NCBI GenBank assembly: GCA_013152945.1
Contig: JAADFL010000158.1
Coordinates: forward strand, 5,732-69,731
Direction of reading: 5' to 3'
DNA: 64,000 nucleotides
Source: Deltaproteobacteria bacterium
Lineage (GTDB): Bacteria > Myxococcota_A > JAADFL01
Of the stretch, positions 1,761 through 62,173 are shown piece by piece. Below the pieces are notes generated by a model. That model saw nothing but the letters and a program-made list of their open reading frames with translations. It ran no database searches and was not told where the DNA came from. The position numbers and the translations under genes are program-made. The first letter of the stretch is position 1. The number at the start of each line of letters is the position of its first letter.

Positions 1761-3446
1761 ATGAATAAGGCGGCAAGACTCAAGAGGAGCCTGCGAAAAC
1801 GCAACAAGGGCCAGGCCATGGTGCTTGCTGCGGTAAGCATGCTGATCCTGGCTCTCGGCATACTCGTGACGGTGAACCTTGGCCATGCTGTTCACCAGAG
1901 GATCAGGCTGCAGAATGCCGCAGATGCGGGTGCGTACTCGCTTGCAGCAATGGAGGCAAGGACTTTCAATTACTTTGCCTTCACTAACAGGGCACAGGTG
2001 GTGAACTACAATGCCATGATGACATTGAACGCATACATCGCACTGCTGACAAGGGCGGAATCGATGTTCGGTGTTGCGTCCGACAACATGTACTACATAC
2101 ACACTTATTTATGTTGGTTGTGCAGGGTCGGATGCAAGCCTCCCATAACTACGTTCGGTTGCTGGGCCTGCCCGTTGAAGAGTGTCGTTGCCGGACTGGG
2201 AAATGCTGCCAGGGCTGTTGCAAACGGGTTTGGAGCCATGTTGAACGTGGCGGATCCCGCCCTGGCCATGCTTGTCTCTTTGTCCTCCATGGCAAACTAT
2301 GTGGGTACGTTCACTTCCCAGTACGTCATGGGATCGGCGGTCTTGAGCCACATAGCAGACTCCATGAAGAGCATAACGAGCAAGGACAGCGAGGAAGTGG
2401 ATTTCAATGCGTTCCAGATGCTGGTCGGTGCATATAACTACAACGAATACAAAAAGGCCTTTGACCCGGCAGTGGGCTCCCCTCCGGCCTGGCCGAGAGG
2501 CTGGACCCCGCCGGCAAGCGATTCGAATGTGAAAAAAGCAAAGAGGGTCATGGCGGAAATTGTCAATGCCACGCGGTATCCTGCAAACCACCTGACATGG
2601 CAGACCATTCCGGGTTTCGCCTTCTCTGCTTCATGGATAGGCGGCCAGACAAAGCTTATAGACGAGGCAAAGTTCAATCCGTCCACGGACTTGAGAGGAA
2701 AGTACATCGGCCCCGGCCCGGGCTGGGGGGTAAGGGACACCAGGACAAAGGCCCAGGATGAATCCAAGCTGAGTCCCGGAGATACGCTGGCAAGCGACTC
2801 GTGGTACAGGTTTTCCCTCCCTGCGCCGGGCGGTTTCAATGCAGGAACCATGTATTCCCTGTACGTGGTTGCGAGTCACGATAAGAACAAGAGGAGACAT
2901 CTTAGGTGGAAGGCACACACGTTCAACCAGGCAGCTTGTAACTATACCTACGGCATGATACAGGTCGGTCATTTCGGGCTTGCAAAAGACCCGCATCCAA
3001 AGGCAGGTTCGAATGACGATATAGATACGCGCCATGCATTCCAGGGCATAACGCCCTTCATGAAGTTCGCTGCACTGGCCGATGCAAAGCAGGACTTTCA
3101 CCAGCCGAGTGCGTACGTGATGCTGAACAAGAAGCCGGAAAAGCTGAAGAGGATCTTTACAAAGAAATTTAACTACAGGACAGGCGCAGGCTCTTCAACC
3201 AAGGTGGACATGAACATAGGAAGGAAAGGACTCATGGGTACGGGCGCTTTCAAGGGCTTGACGTCCCTGTCCAGGGCCATGGCGTACTACCACAGGCCGG
3301 GTGACTGGCAGGAACAGCCCAATTTTTTCAACCCGTTCTGGCGGGCAAAGCTGGCGCCGCTAGCAACAGACAAGGAACTGGCCGGGCTCTTGGGCTCGGT
3401 TCCGGGCCTGGGAAACCTGCTGAAAGACAACCTATTGCTCCATTGA
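1761..3446 (+). CDS. TadG-like Tad pilus protein with Cys-rich insert
   Basis: This 561-residue protein has a basic N-terminus, KGQAMV at 16-21 and a hydrophobic helix at about 20-42, followed by the TadG hallmark LQNAADAGAYSLA (50-62). Unlike its neighbours it lacks the +5 Glu (Leu22 instead), so it may be anchored rather than processed. TadG proteins are membrane-anchored components of Tad systems thought to act at the pilus tip or in pilus stabilisation. The rest is a large exported domain with no visible VWA/MIDAS motif. Residues 118-137 hold five cysteines in CxxC-x3-C and CxxC patterns, suggesting disulfides or metal binding. The gene lies 68 bases after the TadE-like gene. A weak GGGAAGA precedes the ATG. 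Confidence 0.75.
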   Translation: MNKAARLKRSLRKRNKGQAMVLAAVSMLILALGILVTVNLGHAVHQRIRLQNAADAGAYSLAAMEARTFNYFAFTNRAQVVNYNAMMTLNAYIALLTRAESMFGVASDNMYYIHTYLCWLCRVGCKPPITTFGCWACPLKSVVAGLGNAARAVANGFGAMLNVADPALAMLVSLSSMANYVGTFTSQYVMGSAVLSHIADSMKSITSKDSEEVDFNAFQMLVGAYNYNEYKKAFDPAVGSPPAWPRGWTPPASDSNVKKAKRVMAEIVNATRYPANHLTWQTIPGFAFSASWIGGQTKLIDEAKFNPSTDLRGKYIGPGPGWGVRDTRTKAQDESKLSPGDTLASDSWYRFSLPAPGGFNAGTMYSLYVVASHDKNKRRHLRWKAHTFNQAACNYTYGMIQVGHFGLAKDPHPKAGSNDDIDTRHAFQGITPFMKFAALADAKQDFHQPSAYVMLNKKPEKLKRIFTKKFNYRTGAGSSTKVDMNIGRKGLMGTGAFKGLTSLSRAMAYYHRPGDWQEQPNFFNPFWRAKLAPLATDKELAGLLGSVPGLGNLLKDNLLLH

Positions 3447-3480
3447 CGGGAAACGGCATGAAAGTGACGAGAGAAAGAAA

Positions 3481-4665
3481 ATGAAAAGGCGGCAGGAAAA
3501 ACAAGAACCCGGTATTGGGCGAATTTTCCCGCCACGGCTCTGTACCGCCGTGTATACAGGAATTGTTCGCGTATCCAGGCGGTTTTCCTGCAGGGACCAT
3601 GGTCGATCGAAGGTGCGTGCTCCTTTGGTCCGGGGCAGCGCTGTGACAGAAATGGCCCTTCTCTCGATCGTGCTGGTTCCTGCATTGCTTTATGCAGTGT
3701 ACTTTTTCGATATCATACACGTGATGCTCAAGGTCCAGGAAGCGGCCAGATATGCTGTATGGGAGTTCACGGGGTATAATCTGCACGATTACAATTCCAG
3801 CAAGGGCAAAGGTCACAAGGCAAAGTTCGACTCGGCCAAGTCTGCAATAGAGCAGGATGTAAAAGATAGGTTCGCAAACCTGGTCTCAACAGACAAGGAG
3901 GCAAAAAGCAAGTCCAAGAAGCTGGCCATAGACTGGAATCTAAGCAAGGTGGACATTTCGTCTTCAAAGATTCCGGTGGTTTCCAAGAACCTGGCCGACG
4001 TGTTTCAAAACAACGGCGGAGGTGCTGGCTTTGGTCAGGTGCTGGACAGATTCAACATGGGAATGAACAAAATTCTTCAGGACCAGATGAACTTCAATTC
4101 CGGGGGCCAGGTTACAGCCAAGATTACTATTCAGGCCAGGGCTACGATTTTTCCGCAGAGGTACTTGAGCAGGCAGTGGGGCCTTGCTGATTCTATGCTT
4201 CCGAGGAAACTTGCAAGGCTGGATTTCACAGAGGATGTTACGCTTGTGGCGGATTCGTGGAAGCTCTTCGATGGTTCCAACTATGTGACGGCAGGCAAGG
4301 GTAAAGATGATCAGAGCAACAAGACGTACTTCAACCAGCTTAAAAACGTGGCCTTTTTCGGACTCGAGGCAGGTCTGACAAACCAGATGCAGCAGGCCTT
4401 GGCCGTGATGGATACCAACCATATACCAAACCCGTGGACCGTGGTGCTTCGTTCCAGGGCCTACAAGGGAGGAGACCACAATTCAGGCAGGTTCAAATTC
4501 AAATCAGGGTACTATTCCGGCGACATAGACGGAGGTATAGACACATACAACACGAGTCCCATGGAAGACGGCCCGGGCCAGAGCGAGTACATGAAGACAT
4601 TCGACAAGCGGGGTGATTATTACATGGGATGCAAGAGCGCAGGAGAAAAGGAATGCTCCTTTTAA
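3481..4665 (+). CDS. Second TadE-like pseudopilin
   Basis: In this 394-residue frame the recognisable part is G52 followed by SAVTE (Glu57 at +5) and the hydrophobic segment MALLSIVLVPALLYAVYFF, again a class III pseudopilin N-terminus. The leader before the cut site is unusually long and basic if ATG 3481 is used (AGAAAG just upstream); a GTG at 3613 (before RAPLVRG) would give a conventional short leader. The remainder is hydrophilic and Lys/Ser/Gly-rich, and is probably periplasmic or extracellular. It lies between the TadG-like gene and an exported-protein gene that overlaps its stop by 13 bases, which supports co-translation. Large TadE-like proteins of this kind are common in deltaproteobacterial Tad clusters, but the precise role is not known. 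Confidence 0.7.
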   Translation: MKRRQEKQEPGIGRIFPPRLCTAVYTGIVRVSRRFSCRDHGRSKVRAPLVRGSAVTEMALLSIVLVPALLYAVYFFDIIHVMLKVQEAARYAVWEFTGYNLHDYNSSKGKGHKAKFDSAKSAIEQDVKDRFANLVSTDKEAKSKSKKLAIDWNLSKVDISSSKIPVVSKNLADVFQNNGGGAGFGQVLDRFNMGMNKILQDQMNFNSGGQVTAKITIQARATIFPQRYLSRQWGLADSMLPRKLARLDFTEDVTLVADSWKLFDGSNYVTAGKGKDDQSNKTYFNQLKNVAFFGLEAGLTNQMQQALAVMDTNHIPNPWTVVLRSRAYKGGDHNSGRFKFKSGYYSGDIDGGIDTYNTSPMEDGPGQSEYMKTFDKRGDYYMGCKSAGEKECSF

Positions 4666-5417
4666 GAGAAAGGCCCAGCAGAATAACGGGTGCCGGGTTT
4701 TATTTCGTTGCCTTGCTTTCCGCATTCGTATTATTTTTAGCAAGCATTGCACAGGCCAAAGACGCGGAAGATACACCCGGGTTCGCCTACCCGGGAGCAA
4801 TGGAACGGCCCCTTGCGGATGACATGCGGCTGAACGGCCTGCCGGTTCTGGAAACGTATTTTTTCACGAGCGATGAAATAGACCATGTTGCCGACTACTA
4901 CTTTGAAGCCATGACCAGGTCGGGATTGATGGTGGCTGAATCCGGTTCCAAAGGCAGGAGAACATTGATTGGAGTAAGGCCTAACGGAAGTATGGTATTC
5001 AGCGTGAACATGTACGATTACGGCGGGAAGGTGGCTGTCTTTCCCTCCAGGATGCCAATGCATCTTCTTGCACGAAAACAAGATGCACGAAACAAGTCGT
5101 CCGGTTCAACCCTGGTCCCGATATTTCCGGGTGCCGATGGGGTTTCGAACCTTGAAACGAACGACCGGCAAATGGTCACACAAACAATCGGGTACCAAGA
5201 CAGGCGAAGTCTAACGGATAATATAAGGTTCTACCTGTCCCAAATGAGAGCCAAGGGCTGGAAAGTGGTTCCACGGGCAAGCCGCGTACAGGGCAATGTC
5301 GCTGTAATGTCTTTTGAGAGAACCCGCATGTCCTGCACCATTACAGTGACAAGGGACGAGAAAAAGAGGTTGACCCTGGTGACAGCCGTATTGAACAAAA
5401 GATTGGCGGGAGAGTAG
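4653..5417 (+). CDS. Exported protein in the pseudopilin operon
   Basis: I choose ATG 4653 because AGGAG lies seven bases upstream (4641-4645); the frame itself is open from 4629. The start overlaps the end of the preceding TadE-like gene, consistent with translational coupling. The 254-residue product has an N-terminal signal peptide (about residues 1-35, ending in SIAQA before KDAED). The mature protein has no motif I can name. Visible features are a LETYFFTSDEIDHVADYYFEA segment, suggestive of a small alpha/beta fold, and a basic C-terminal half. Its position between pseudopilins and the Flp pilin suggests a periplasmic accessory role in the pilus, but that is inference from context. Confidence 0.7.
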   Translation: MLLLRERPSRITGAGFYFVALLSAFVLFLASIAQAKDAEDTPGFAYPGAMERPLADDMRLNGLPVLETYFFTSDEIDHVADYYFEAMTRSGLMVAESGSKGRRTLIGVRPNGSMVFSVNMYDYGGKVAVFPSRMPMHLLARKQDARNKSSGSTLVPIFPGADGVSNLETNDRQMVTQTIGYQDRRSLTDNIRFYLSQMRAKGWKVVPRASRVQGNVAVMSFERTRMSCTITVTRDEKKRLTLVTAVLNKRLAGE

Positions 5418-5429
5418 CAGGAGAATAAT

Positions 5430-5636
5430 ATGAAAGACCTGTATTTCTTGCTGGCATCATTACCGGGCCGGGCTGCTGGAGAAAAAGGCCAGTCCATGGT
5501 GGAATATACATTGATTACATTTTTCCTGCTCATTGCCGCGGGCGGCGTGGCCTTTGCCTTCTTGCCCGATATGTTGAGTGCGTACCAGGACTATATCGAC
5601 AGTTTCTCGTTCGTGCTCAACCTGCCCATCCCCTGA
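5430..5636 (+). CDS. flp: Flp-family type IVb pilin
   Basis: This 68-residue protein has the typical size and layout of Flp pilins: a short leader ending at G20, then QSMVEYTLIT with Glu25 and Tyr26 forming the conserved Glu-Tyr pair, then a single hydrophobic helix to about residue 45 and a short tail. Flp pilins are cut by the TadV peptidase and polymerise into the adhesive Tad pilus fibre. An AGGAG lies seven bases before the ATG, 12 bases after the preceding stop. The pilin is normally the first gene of a tad cluster; here it is last in the pseudopilin block and faces a convergent gene. No prepilin peptidase gene is seen in the window. Confidence 0.85.
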   Translation: MKDLYFLLASLPGRAAGEKGQSMVEYTLITFFLLIAAGGVAFAFLPDMLSAYQDYIDSFSFVLNLPIP

Positions 5637-59308: not shown

Positions 59309-62173
59309 ATGTGGAATGCAAGCAAATTGAAGTTTTCTTATTTCTGCTTTTCGATAGCTTTCGTCAACCTTTCATCACCATTGTCAAACGCAGTAATTGC
59401 CGGTGAGATGAAACCTGTCCCTAATTACAACTTGTTGTCCGTGACCGGGGATACAGGCGGCCTGATGAGTGGAGAAACGTTGAAGACACAACTGGCCGAG
59501 TTGGGCATGGTCTACCTTTTGCGGAAAGAGACCGGAAAATTTGAAATACAGGTCTTGAGAACATTCATGAGTATACATGGAACATTTGCCGTTGCTCTTG
59601 GTAAAAAAATCGGGCCTTTGGATTTCTCCAGGTTTTTAGAAAGGATTACCCATGTTGGTTCAAAACAAATACTCGACTTGAAGAAAAAAACACTGGTTGA
59701 GGCTCCTGCCGCGTCAATGATTGTTCTGCAGGGTGAAACATCTGGAAAAGACCTGTTGAAGTTTGCATCACACAACAAGCTGTTTACTGCCGAAAAATAT
59801 GGCGAGAGCACGATGTTTGTCGGGCGGATCACTGTTTCGGGCATCACTTGGCTGGTATGCTCTTCAACCGCGGTGCCCGATATCCCGCGTGACGTCAATG
59901 ACTGGGAAGCGCGTTGGGCTGCCTACTTATCAAGGGGCAACACCAAACTCCTGTCATTGCCGGACAACCTGGGAGGAGGCCCAAGGCGTGTCAGGGCCGT
60001 GCAAGAACTTGAAAACAGTAGCAAGATGCTTTTGATCGATCTCGGTAATGCCCTTGAAGGTTATTCCTGGGTAGATTTCGGACAACGGAACAGGCAACGT
60101 CCGAATTCATTGGAATTGCTTAAGGAGCTTGGTTATTCGATGGTCTGCCCGGGCAGCAGTGACCTGGCCTTTGGCATGGCTGGTTACAGAGCGGAATTGG
60201 CCGAGGCCGGGGTGTCGCCGCTTAATTCCAACATAGTGGATCAACGTGGGAAATTCGTATTCAAGACATTCGCTCGTTTCAAATTGAACGGCATTCCTGT
60301 AAAATTCTATTGTTTTTCCTCAAAAGAGACGCTCGGTATGCTACCTCGAAAGGACAGGGGAAAATTCAAGATCCTCAACTTGACACATGCATTGAAAAAA
60401 CTCGATCTGGACAGAAAACCGGGCGAGGTTTTTATAGCGGGTTTTGGTCCTGGTACACGAAAATTACGTGACGAGCTACGGCGTCTTCCACAGCTTTTCG
60501 ATATAATTATGTCTCCTGTACATCGTCTGGGGCCCTGGCTTCCGGGAAGAATCCATGAGAAGCTGGGCACTTCTTTTTCTTATACAAGAAACTATTTATT
60601 CCCCGGGAAATACAGTATTGGGGTCTTTTCCATGGGTCCTGAAAAAGATGAAGAGGAATGGCGGGTTACTTTTTTGAACGATAGGATTGAGCCTGATCGT
60701 AAAACTCTGGAGCGTATGATGGCTGTCCGTTTCGAAGCACTGAAAGATGAAGACCGTATCATACTGCCGGATCCAACCAAGGTGATGCCCTTGGGATCGG
60801 ATCTTCTTAAAGAACTGATCTTGGGGAAAAAATCTATTTTCGATATTTATTTGGGATCTGGCTGGGAAAATAATGTGCAAGATTTACACCAGCTTATAGC
60901 AAGGTACCTGGACGGCCTGCTTGATAATCTGGTGGGAAATATTCTGGTCCGTCTTACGGCTGCGGATGCTTGTGTCTTGATGCCTCTGGAAGATAATCTC
61001 GATTTACCGGGTTCCATAACTGCAGGAATGCTTGCATCTGTTCTGGCTGTGCCGGACAAGTTGGTCATCGTCGAGCTGGACGGACGTAATCTTATAAAGA
61101 TTCTAAAGAAATCCGGGTTCCATTGGGCCATGGCTGATCCTGTGGCCAAGCTGGTCCAAGGCTGGCCTGTGGACACAAGAGCCGGCTATCGCCTGGTGAC
61201 GACAGATGTGACGGCAGCCGAACTCGGTCTGGAAGCAAAAGCCCACACCTGGAACAATAATACTTCCTCCCTACCCGCCTCAAGCGAAGATGACGAGGTG
61301 CCTTTGTCCGGGGCCGTAATCCAATATCTCGACAAGCTGAAGTCCGGCCATGAAGAAACAGCCTATCTGCAAGAAATCCAATGGTTACTCAAAAGGCATG
61401 GAAAGGAAAAAAAATCCCACTGGTCTTTCGACCTTTCGGCCCTGGATCTTGCGGCGGAGAGAACAGGAATCTGGAAACCAGGCGGCTTCGACAAGGTCAC
61501 TGATTCCCGAGTCGGGGTACAGGACCTGACACGTATGCAGGTATTCCTCCAGGCAGCACTTGCCAGGGAAACTGAAAATTATTTGTGGAAAAATACATTG
61601 AAGGCTCAACTCGGTCTTTCCATAACAACAGGATGGGATGATCGGATCGAAGATTCCGATGACCTTGTGCTTTCAAGCGACTTTCGTTATCGCATCGGTG
61701 CAAATTCATGGCTGCCGAGACCATATGTATCTTTCACCTATGACAGCGAGATACTTGTAAAAGACAATCCCAGACAGCAACAAGTGTTTGGCGACATCGG
61801 GGCTGTCTTGGAACCTGGCAAGAAACTCCCCGAGCTTGGGCTGTCTACCTTTGTGTCTCATGATTTTGTAACAACCGGCACAAGTACTCGTCCGGGGTTG
61901 GGGCTTTTTTTCAAGGGTCGATATATCTTTGGCAAATTGACAATATCTGATGCCATGAAATTCAGGTACTATGTGCCCGTTGGTGATGAAACAGATGACC
62001 TATTAAGGCTCACACTGGAAAACCGTTTCTCCTTTTCTTTTCTGATGGTGTCTGGAATCAGTATTAAATTATTCGCCAATCTATTTCTTTTTAGCGGCGT
62101 CATTAATAAGAGCATAGGCCATTCATGGAACTGGGGCAGCGCTCTTTCATATACGTGGCTGGATTTATTTTAA
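59309..62173 (+). CDS. Degenerate 5'-nucleotidase fused to probable outer-membrane beta-barrel
   Basis: I take ATG 59309 (954 residues), with GGAG upstream; GTG 59297 is an alternative. A signal sequence is followed by a domain that has the layout of a UshA-type metallophosphatase but not its metal ligands: MLLIDLGNALEG where DAGD-type residues are expected, and MVCPGSSDLAFG where GNHEFD normally sits. A 5'-nucleotidase C-terminal domain is recognisable at about 570-680 (ADACVLMPLEDNLDLPGSITAGMLASVLAVPDKLVIVELDGRNL). The last ~240 residues alternate hydrophobic and polar residues with many aromatics and end in WLDLF, the terminal Phe of outer-membrane barrels. Active catalysis is improbable. 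Function unknown. Confidence 0.7.
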   Translation: MWNASKLKFSYFCFSIAFVNLSSPLSNAVIAGEMKPVPNYNLLSVTGDTGGLMSGETLKTQLAELGMVYLLRKETGKFEIQVLRTFMSIHGTFAVALGKKIGPLDFSRFLERITHVGSKQILDLKKKTLVEAPAASMIVLQGETSGKDLLKFASHNKLFTAEKYGESTMFVGRITVSGITWLVCSSTAVPDIPRDVNDWEARWAAYLSRGNTKLLSLPDNLGGGPRRVRAVQELENSSKMLLIDLGNALEGYSWVDFGQRNRQRPNSLELLKELGYSMVCPGSSDLAFGMAGYRAELAEAGVSPLNSNIVDQRGKFVFKTFARFKLNGIPVKFYCFSSKETLGMLPRKDRGKFKILNLTHALKKLDLDRKPGEVFIAGFGPGTRKLRDELRRLPQLFDIIMSPVHRLGPWLPGRIHEKLGTSFSYTRNYLFPGKYSIGVFSMGPEKDEEEWRVTFLNDRIEPDRKTLERMMAVRFEALKDEDRIILPDPTKVMPLGSDLLKELILGKKSIFDIYLGSGWENNVQDLHQLIARYLDGLLDNLVGNILVRLTAADACVLMPLEDNLDLPGSITAGMLASVLAVPDKLVIVELDGRNLIKILKKSGFHWAMADPVAKLVQGWPVDTRAGYRLVTTDVTAAELGLEAKAHTWNNNTSSLPASSEDDEVPLSGAVIQYLDKLKSGHEETAYLQEIQWLLKRHGKEKKSHWSFDLSALDLAAERTGIWKPGGFDKVTDSRVGVQDLTRMQVFLQAALARETENYLWKNTLKAQLGLSITTGWDDRIEDSDDLVLSSDFRYRIGANSWLPRPYVSFTYDSEILVKDNPRQQQVFGDIGAVLEPGKKLPELGLSTFVSHDFVTTGTSTRPGLGLFFKGRYIFGKLTISDAMKFRYYVPVGDETDDLLRLTLENRFSFSFLMVSGISIKLFANLFLFSGVINKSIGHSWNWGSALSYTWLDLF

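Follow-up and report, generated by a model that had tools for sequence, protein, structure and literature searches.

What a 5'-nucleotidase-like domain does when it has lost its metal site and is joined in one chain to an outer-membrane barrel is the question raised by a gene of the window, the 64,000-nucleotide stretch of DNA that was analysed. The gene is a single unbroken ORF on the plus strand, which starts with the ATG at 59309, ends with the stop codon at 62171-62173 and contains no internal stop (Table 1). Its product of 954 residues unites a UshA-like domain without a metal site and a 12-stranded outer-membrane barrel; of this architecture we are nearly certain. Residues 1-31, which precede these two parts, were unstructured and of low confidence in the whole-protein model. 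The fusion gene is present in a single copy in its own Myxococcota genome (4.84 Mb, 218 contigs). It stands alone: the upstream ORF lies on the opposite strand and by eye resembles an NDP-forming acyl-CoA synthetase, and the downstream ORF is convergent. No recurrent gene neighbour was obvious when the flanking ORFs of 14 loci were compared by eye, and scans for a promoter and a terminator of the fusion gene gave chance-level results only.

Table 1. Features of the fusion gene, with positions in the window and residues of the 954-residue product.
Feature	Position	Strand	Basis
Whole gene, 954 aa: signal peptide, UshA-like pseudo-nucleotidase, 12-stranded outer-membrane barrel	59309..62173	+	ORF, profile comparison, models
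Probable signal peptide, residues 1-31	59309..59401	+	by eye: K-L-K, hydrophobic stretch, ...SNAVIA
First strand of metallophosphoesterase domain with VTGDTGG motif at the place of DxH, residues 42-53	59432..59467	+	alignment, model
Insertion of the window subfamily, 164 aa, residues 56-219, repeated beta-beta-alpha	59474..59965	+	model; alignment
Remainder of metallophosphoesterase-like domain, residues 220-462	59966..60694	+	profiles, structural alignment
DLGN, residues 244-247, replacing DxGD	60038..60049	+	profile-profile, alignment
GSSD, residues 282-285, replacing GNHE	60152..60163	+	profile-profile, alignment
Inter-domain helix, residues 464-478	60698..60742	+	model
5'-nucleotidase C-terminal-like domain and following linker, residues 480-701	60746..61411	+	Pfam, profile-profile, structural alignment
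12-stranded outer-membrane barrel, residues 704-954, Phe at the end	61418..62170	+	models, strand alternation, fold search
E781 and D784 (26/26), predicted near barrel outer rim	61649..61660	+	alignment, model
D812 (20/26) and E814 (25/26), same predicted rim as E781/D784	61742..61750	+	alignment, model
D852 (26/26), predicted inward near the same rim	61862..61864	+	alignment, model

Residues 39-701 adopt the two-domain fold of UshA, SoxB and CD73, as found by both profile-profile comparison and structural alignment. Relatives from three genomes provided the first profile, which was followed by a 26-member alignment (A2). Profile-profile comparison (hhalign) with five 5'-nucleotidase homologues bearing intact motifs gave a probability of 99.4% and an E value of 2.9e-21 over 434 columns, which cover both UshA domains. 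The family profile matched the PDB sequences of the 5'-nucleotidase 2z1a (2e-19), SoxB (9e-18) and UshA (2e-12). An AlphaFold2 model of the whole protein reached a mean pLDDT of 77.4 and a pTM of 0.76, and its residues 39-701 were aligned by VIA-align 2 with SoxB (Z 22.5; 421 residues, rmsd 4.9), UshA (21.4) and CD73 (20.8); SoxB and UshA are tied as the closest solved folds, with CD73 slightly lower. The domain order of UshA, including the C-terminal nucleotidase domain, had been recognised in a sequence-only reading of this DNA and is borne out by these comparisons. A search of the PDB sequences with the single protein returned no match, and its single-sequence matches to Pfam 5_nucleotid_C (PF02872; 17.6 bits, cut-off 23.6) and NCBIfam UshA_like_PCGU (NF041198; 22.9 bits, cut-off 275) all lie under the curated cut-offs; the relation to UshA is therefore clear only through profiles. 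The insertion at residues 56-219, which together with the wide spread of the family adds to that first reading, sits after the first nucleotidase strand relative to SoxB, UshA and CD73. It is the least conserved region, and searches of the PDB sequences, and of Pfam with the window member, gave no significant match to it.

The metal motifs had been described as replaced, with DLGN for DxGD and GSSD for GNHE. Both motifs do read in this way, and a listing of the ligands by alignment found them not intact. Six ligand positions were tested, two in DxH and one each in GD, GN(HE), H and GH(xH), all of which are kept by the five reference homologues. In the window protein these positions are D48, G50, N247, S283 and two that lack His, which leaves at most one canonical ligand (D48). 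DxH reads D48-T-G50; in the 26 relatives its Asp column holds Ala (9), Gly (7), Arg (3), Asp (2) or others, and its His column is Gly in 21 of 26. The GD Asp column, occupied by N247, is also variable in the 26 relatives. The Asn and His columns of GNHE vary freely, with an acid retained at the Glu column (residue 285) in every relative (24 Glu, 2 Asp). D398, the Asp that starts the strand before GHxH, is invariant among the relatives. The C-terminal nucleotide-binding motifs NxGxxR, PFxN and GGDG are gone; the aligned stretches are LEDNLDL and VPDK, and GGDG has no counterpart. Since the metal ligands and the C-terminal pocket motifs are both lost, the window protein is very probably dead as a classical 5'-nucleotidase, judged by its residues. 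The lost C-terminal substrate pocket also means that a nucleotide is not supported as the ligand.

The C-terminal part had been taken for a barrel with a terminal Phe, and structure prediction agrees with this assignment. Residues 662-954, folded by themselves with 46 sequences, form two helices and 12 strands (pLDDT 92.8, pTM 0.82); the strands occupy residues 704-952, and the chain ends with Phe954. The family-averaged alternation of inward and outward hydropathy within the strands summed to 14.7, compared with 5.7 (sd 1.2) for shuffled strands (z 7.3). The closest solved folds are Tsx with thymidine (1tlw; Z 15.2, 209 residues, rmsd 3.3), NanC (14.6), PcoB (14.3) and OmpLA (14.2), which is a 12-stranded enzyme and not a channel. 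COG4313, AaaA (13.6), NalP (13.1) and EstA (12.0) come next at Z 12-13.8, and EstA is ranked first by Foldseek. With Z differences below 1 counted as ties, Tsx, NanC, PcoB and OmpLA are tied, and the likeness to Tsx is thus suggestive only. The window barrel shares the 12-stranded fold of the channels Tsx, NanC, KdgM and PcoB (Z 13.5-15.2), but with 7-10% identity and without a Pfam match; the Tsx Pfam family gave no match to the window protein up to E 10. Tsx, the TCDB family of which averages 278 aa (PMC4827864), has no soluble domain, unlike the window protein. The strands at 743-801 weakly match DUF3078 (PF11276; E 0.016, under the cut-off), a 92-position model described as of unknown function, and the likeness is limited to this local strand match.

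Several acidic residues of the barrel are strongly conserved (Table 1). Over 46 barrels D784 is invariant and E781 is kept in at least 90%, and E781 and D852 are predicted by parity to point inward. The near-invariant acids at the predicted outer rim may constitute a cation site.

Homologues with the same fusion were sought and found widely. The barrel profile has matches in approximately one fifth of the Myxococcota genomes searched, 82 of 377, which fall in 64 of 234 genera. Nearly all of these matches lie C-terminally in ORFs of 750-1050 aa that have a UshA-like front. Two batches of loci yielded 37 further members, and in nearly all of them the part upstream of the barrel matches a profile of UshA or of 5'-nucleotidases. 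A scan of 84,980 species genomes with the single protein gave no match. The motif of an 8-row subclade, the sole query used to trace the spread outside Myxococcota, found 11 named loci. The window genome comprises many contigs, which would suit an artefact in which two genes were joined in a metagenome bin. Dozens of independent genomes, however, carry the same fusion, among them genomes of 8.0 and 10.3 Mb that consist of a single contig; the presence of the fusion in unbroken genomes of this size excludes an assembly artefact, to which we assign a negligible probability.

The relatives also display a series in the loss of the metal site, from largely retained to fully lost. Forty-four members outside the window subfamily were aligned with the five reference homologues, and in 39 of them the alignment spans every one of the six ligand positions. 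None of these 39 keeps six ligands, and four keep four (L134, L136, L140 and L125); in the first three, NxD or NxE stands for DxH (ligand patterns NDDNHH and NEDNHH). Many members of the other subfamilies retain the C-terminal substrate motifs, and those with four ligands largely do. L134, L136, L140 and L125 are possible active or intermediate forms. In a tree of the barrels (midpoint root; support values not considered), the window subfamily is set apart from the others, and the window protein lies on a long basal branch.

Some members depart from the common layout. At locus L121, one genome has a barrel-fused pseudo-nucleotidase in two tandem copies (383-2941 and 3021-5591, both on the minus strand). 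At L072 (550-2955, minus strand; also L147, 8050-10455, minus strand), the same barrel follows a low-complexity acidic stretch only, and no nucleotidase domain was found in the 18.5 kb around it. L041 (835-2430 and 2434-3786, plus strand) and L035 are each split by one in-frame TAG, which may reflect sequencing error, decay or recoding. One subclade (alignment A3) has four invariant cysteines (C120, C165, C518 and C585 of L037), which possibly form two disulfides. These are absent in the window protein, the cysteines of which are at 13, 184, 280, 335 and 555 only.

The side of the membrane on which the pseudo-nucleotidase lies was judged from the turns of the barrel. Short turns follow strands 2, 6, 8 and 10 (family medians 3, 7, 3 and 2), and long loops follow strands 1, 5 and 9 (17.5, 16 and 10); less easily placed in this pattern are the turn that follows strand 4 (median 13) and the turns of moderate length behind strands 3, 7 and 11. 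The shortest turns after strands 2, 8 and 10 and the longest loops after strands 1 and 5 place both termini of the barrel in the periplasm. In barrels with periplasmic ends, N-terminal domains are periplasmic unless they are threaded through the pore. On this predicted topology the pseudo-nucleotidase is likely to face the periplasm. The sequence-only reading had proposed a dead nucleotidase displayed by an outer-membrane anchor, as a new kind of surface protein. The fusion of a metal-site-less UshA-like domain to a barrel stands, whereas the surface placing is not supported: the pattern of strands and turns puts the N-terminal domain in the periplasm, and no match to a Pfam autotransporter profile was found.

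We regard as the best explanation of the whole, with roughly even chances, a secreted metal-free UshA relative that is followed by a linker of ~20 residues and a barrel, faces the periplasm and is coupled to a channel. After export of the chain, BAM would insert the barrel so that both its ends lie in the periplasm, where the pseudo-nucleotidase would hang at the mouth of the barrel. Less certainly, the barrel may be a 12-stranded channel for small solutes, with Tsx, NanC and PcoB as the nearest channel folds. The dead domain could then serve as a receptor, gate or tether, which would bind something entering via the barrel or hold an envelope partner, with no hydrolysis of nucleotides. A channel with a receptor or gate role is put forward tentatively. 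With a shade more reserve still, Myxococcota may possess a family of single-chain channels in which a decayed 5'-nucleotidase acts as periplasmic receptor or gate, a 'Tsx-plus-UshA' with catalysis lost and coupling kept, the subfamilies of which range from four of six ligands to none. The ancestor was probably a barrel-coupled nucleotidase of the envelope, a type that is partly visible in the four-ligand relatives.

Surface display of the autotransporter kind would reverse this orientation. The barrel would carry the pseudo-nucleotidase out to the cell surface, the pore being crossed by the linker (here helix 683-698), and the dead domain would be an adhesin or a receptor. A helix runs through the pore in both NalP and EstA. 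The window protein resembles the type Va autotransporters EstA and AaaA in having an N-terminal globular domain and a C-terminal barrel of 12 strands (Z 12.0-13.6), and autotransporters, with EstA first in Foldseek, score just 1-3 Z units under Tsx. Strand 1 is preceded by a linker with a median length of ~20 residues (15-32 among the fused members; 6 in a barrel that lacks the nucleotidase part), and in principle this length allows threading through the pore. The passenger, however, is unrelated to theirs, and Pfam Autotransporter (PF03797) has no match in the window protein up to E 10, in the 26 members at 0.01 or in the whole genome. Although the predicted helix 683-698 precedes the barrel, the structural matches to NalP and EstA run from strand 1 onwards and leave the pre-barrel helices unmatched; in other subfamilies the linker is polar and proline-rich, with no long helix evident by eye. 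We therefore consider surface display quite unlikely.

Other readings leave the orientation aside and concern the work of the domain. It could still be an enzyme, with altered metal use or other chemistry, that passes products to or from the barrel. Such a role would suit the relatives of other subfamilies that keep four of six ligands and the C-terminal substrate motifs, as well as the acid kept at the GNHE Glu position. The window protein itself, with one ligand at most and without substrate motifs, speaks against it, as do ligand columns that vary freely in its subfamily, and an enzyme appears improbable. The domain might instead be a mere spacer or a protein-binding scaffold, for example for peptidoglycan or a periplasmic partner, with the barrel as anchor only. 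SoxB, tied with UshA as the top-ranked solved fold, has been solved in complex with the carrier protein SoxYZ (4uwq, entry title), no small-molecule pocket motif is retained, and the poor conservation of the insertion points in the same direction. The invariant acids of the barrel exceed the needs of an inert anchor, and this reading is judged unlikely.

Among known proteins, the window protein is allied to the UshA/5'-nucleotidase superfamily (E. coli UshA, CD73, SoxB and NadN) in domain order, in the fold over residues 39-701 and in the kept Asp D398. It differs in the missing metal ligands and nucleotide motifs, in the added 164-aa insertion and C-terminal barrel, and in its score under the Pfam cut-off. 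The closest named family is UshA_like_PCGU, UshA-like (seleno)proteins of unknown function, which is the best named sequence match for 17 of the 26 relatives and is similar in its 'TGxxxG' first strand and in having 'PGxxE/D' where GNHE would stand. The window protein lacks the PCGU/PCGC motif and scores far under the cut-off of that family, and the 519-position model has no room for such a barrel beside the UshA part. The full-length fusion has no matching entry in Pfam or NCBIfam. No described fusion of a nucleotidase to a barrel was found in the open-access literature, which is not proof of absence. In a census of outer-membrane pore-forming families, fusions to other domains are rare and the word nucleotidase is absent (PMC4827864), and a survey of ushA-like genes is silent on both barrels and the outer membrane (PMC10454023).

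The fusion is an example, open to testing, of how an enzyme domain can become a non-catalytic component of an outer-membrane protein. Should the barrel prove to conduct, it would be a channel that carries its own pseudo-enzyme. In Myxococcota, envelope traffic matters for both predation and social behaviour.

The genome of the window also encodes, at L011 1450-2000, a UshA-like protein in which an in-frame TGA ends the PCGU motif ('GELAPCGU'); by its sequence, this is a probable selenoprotein of the NF041198 type.
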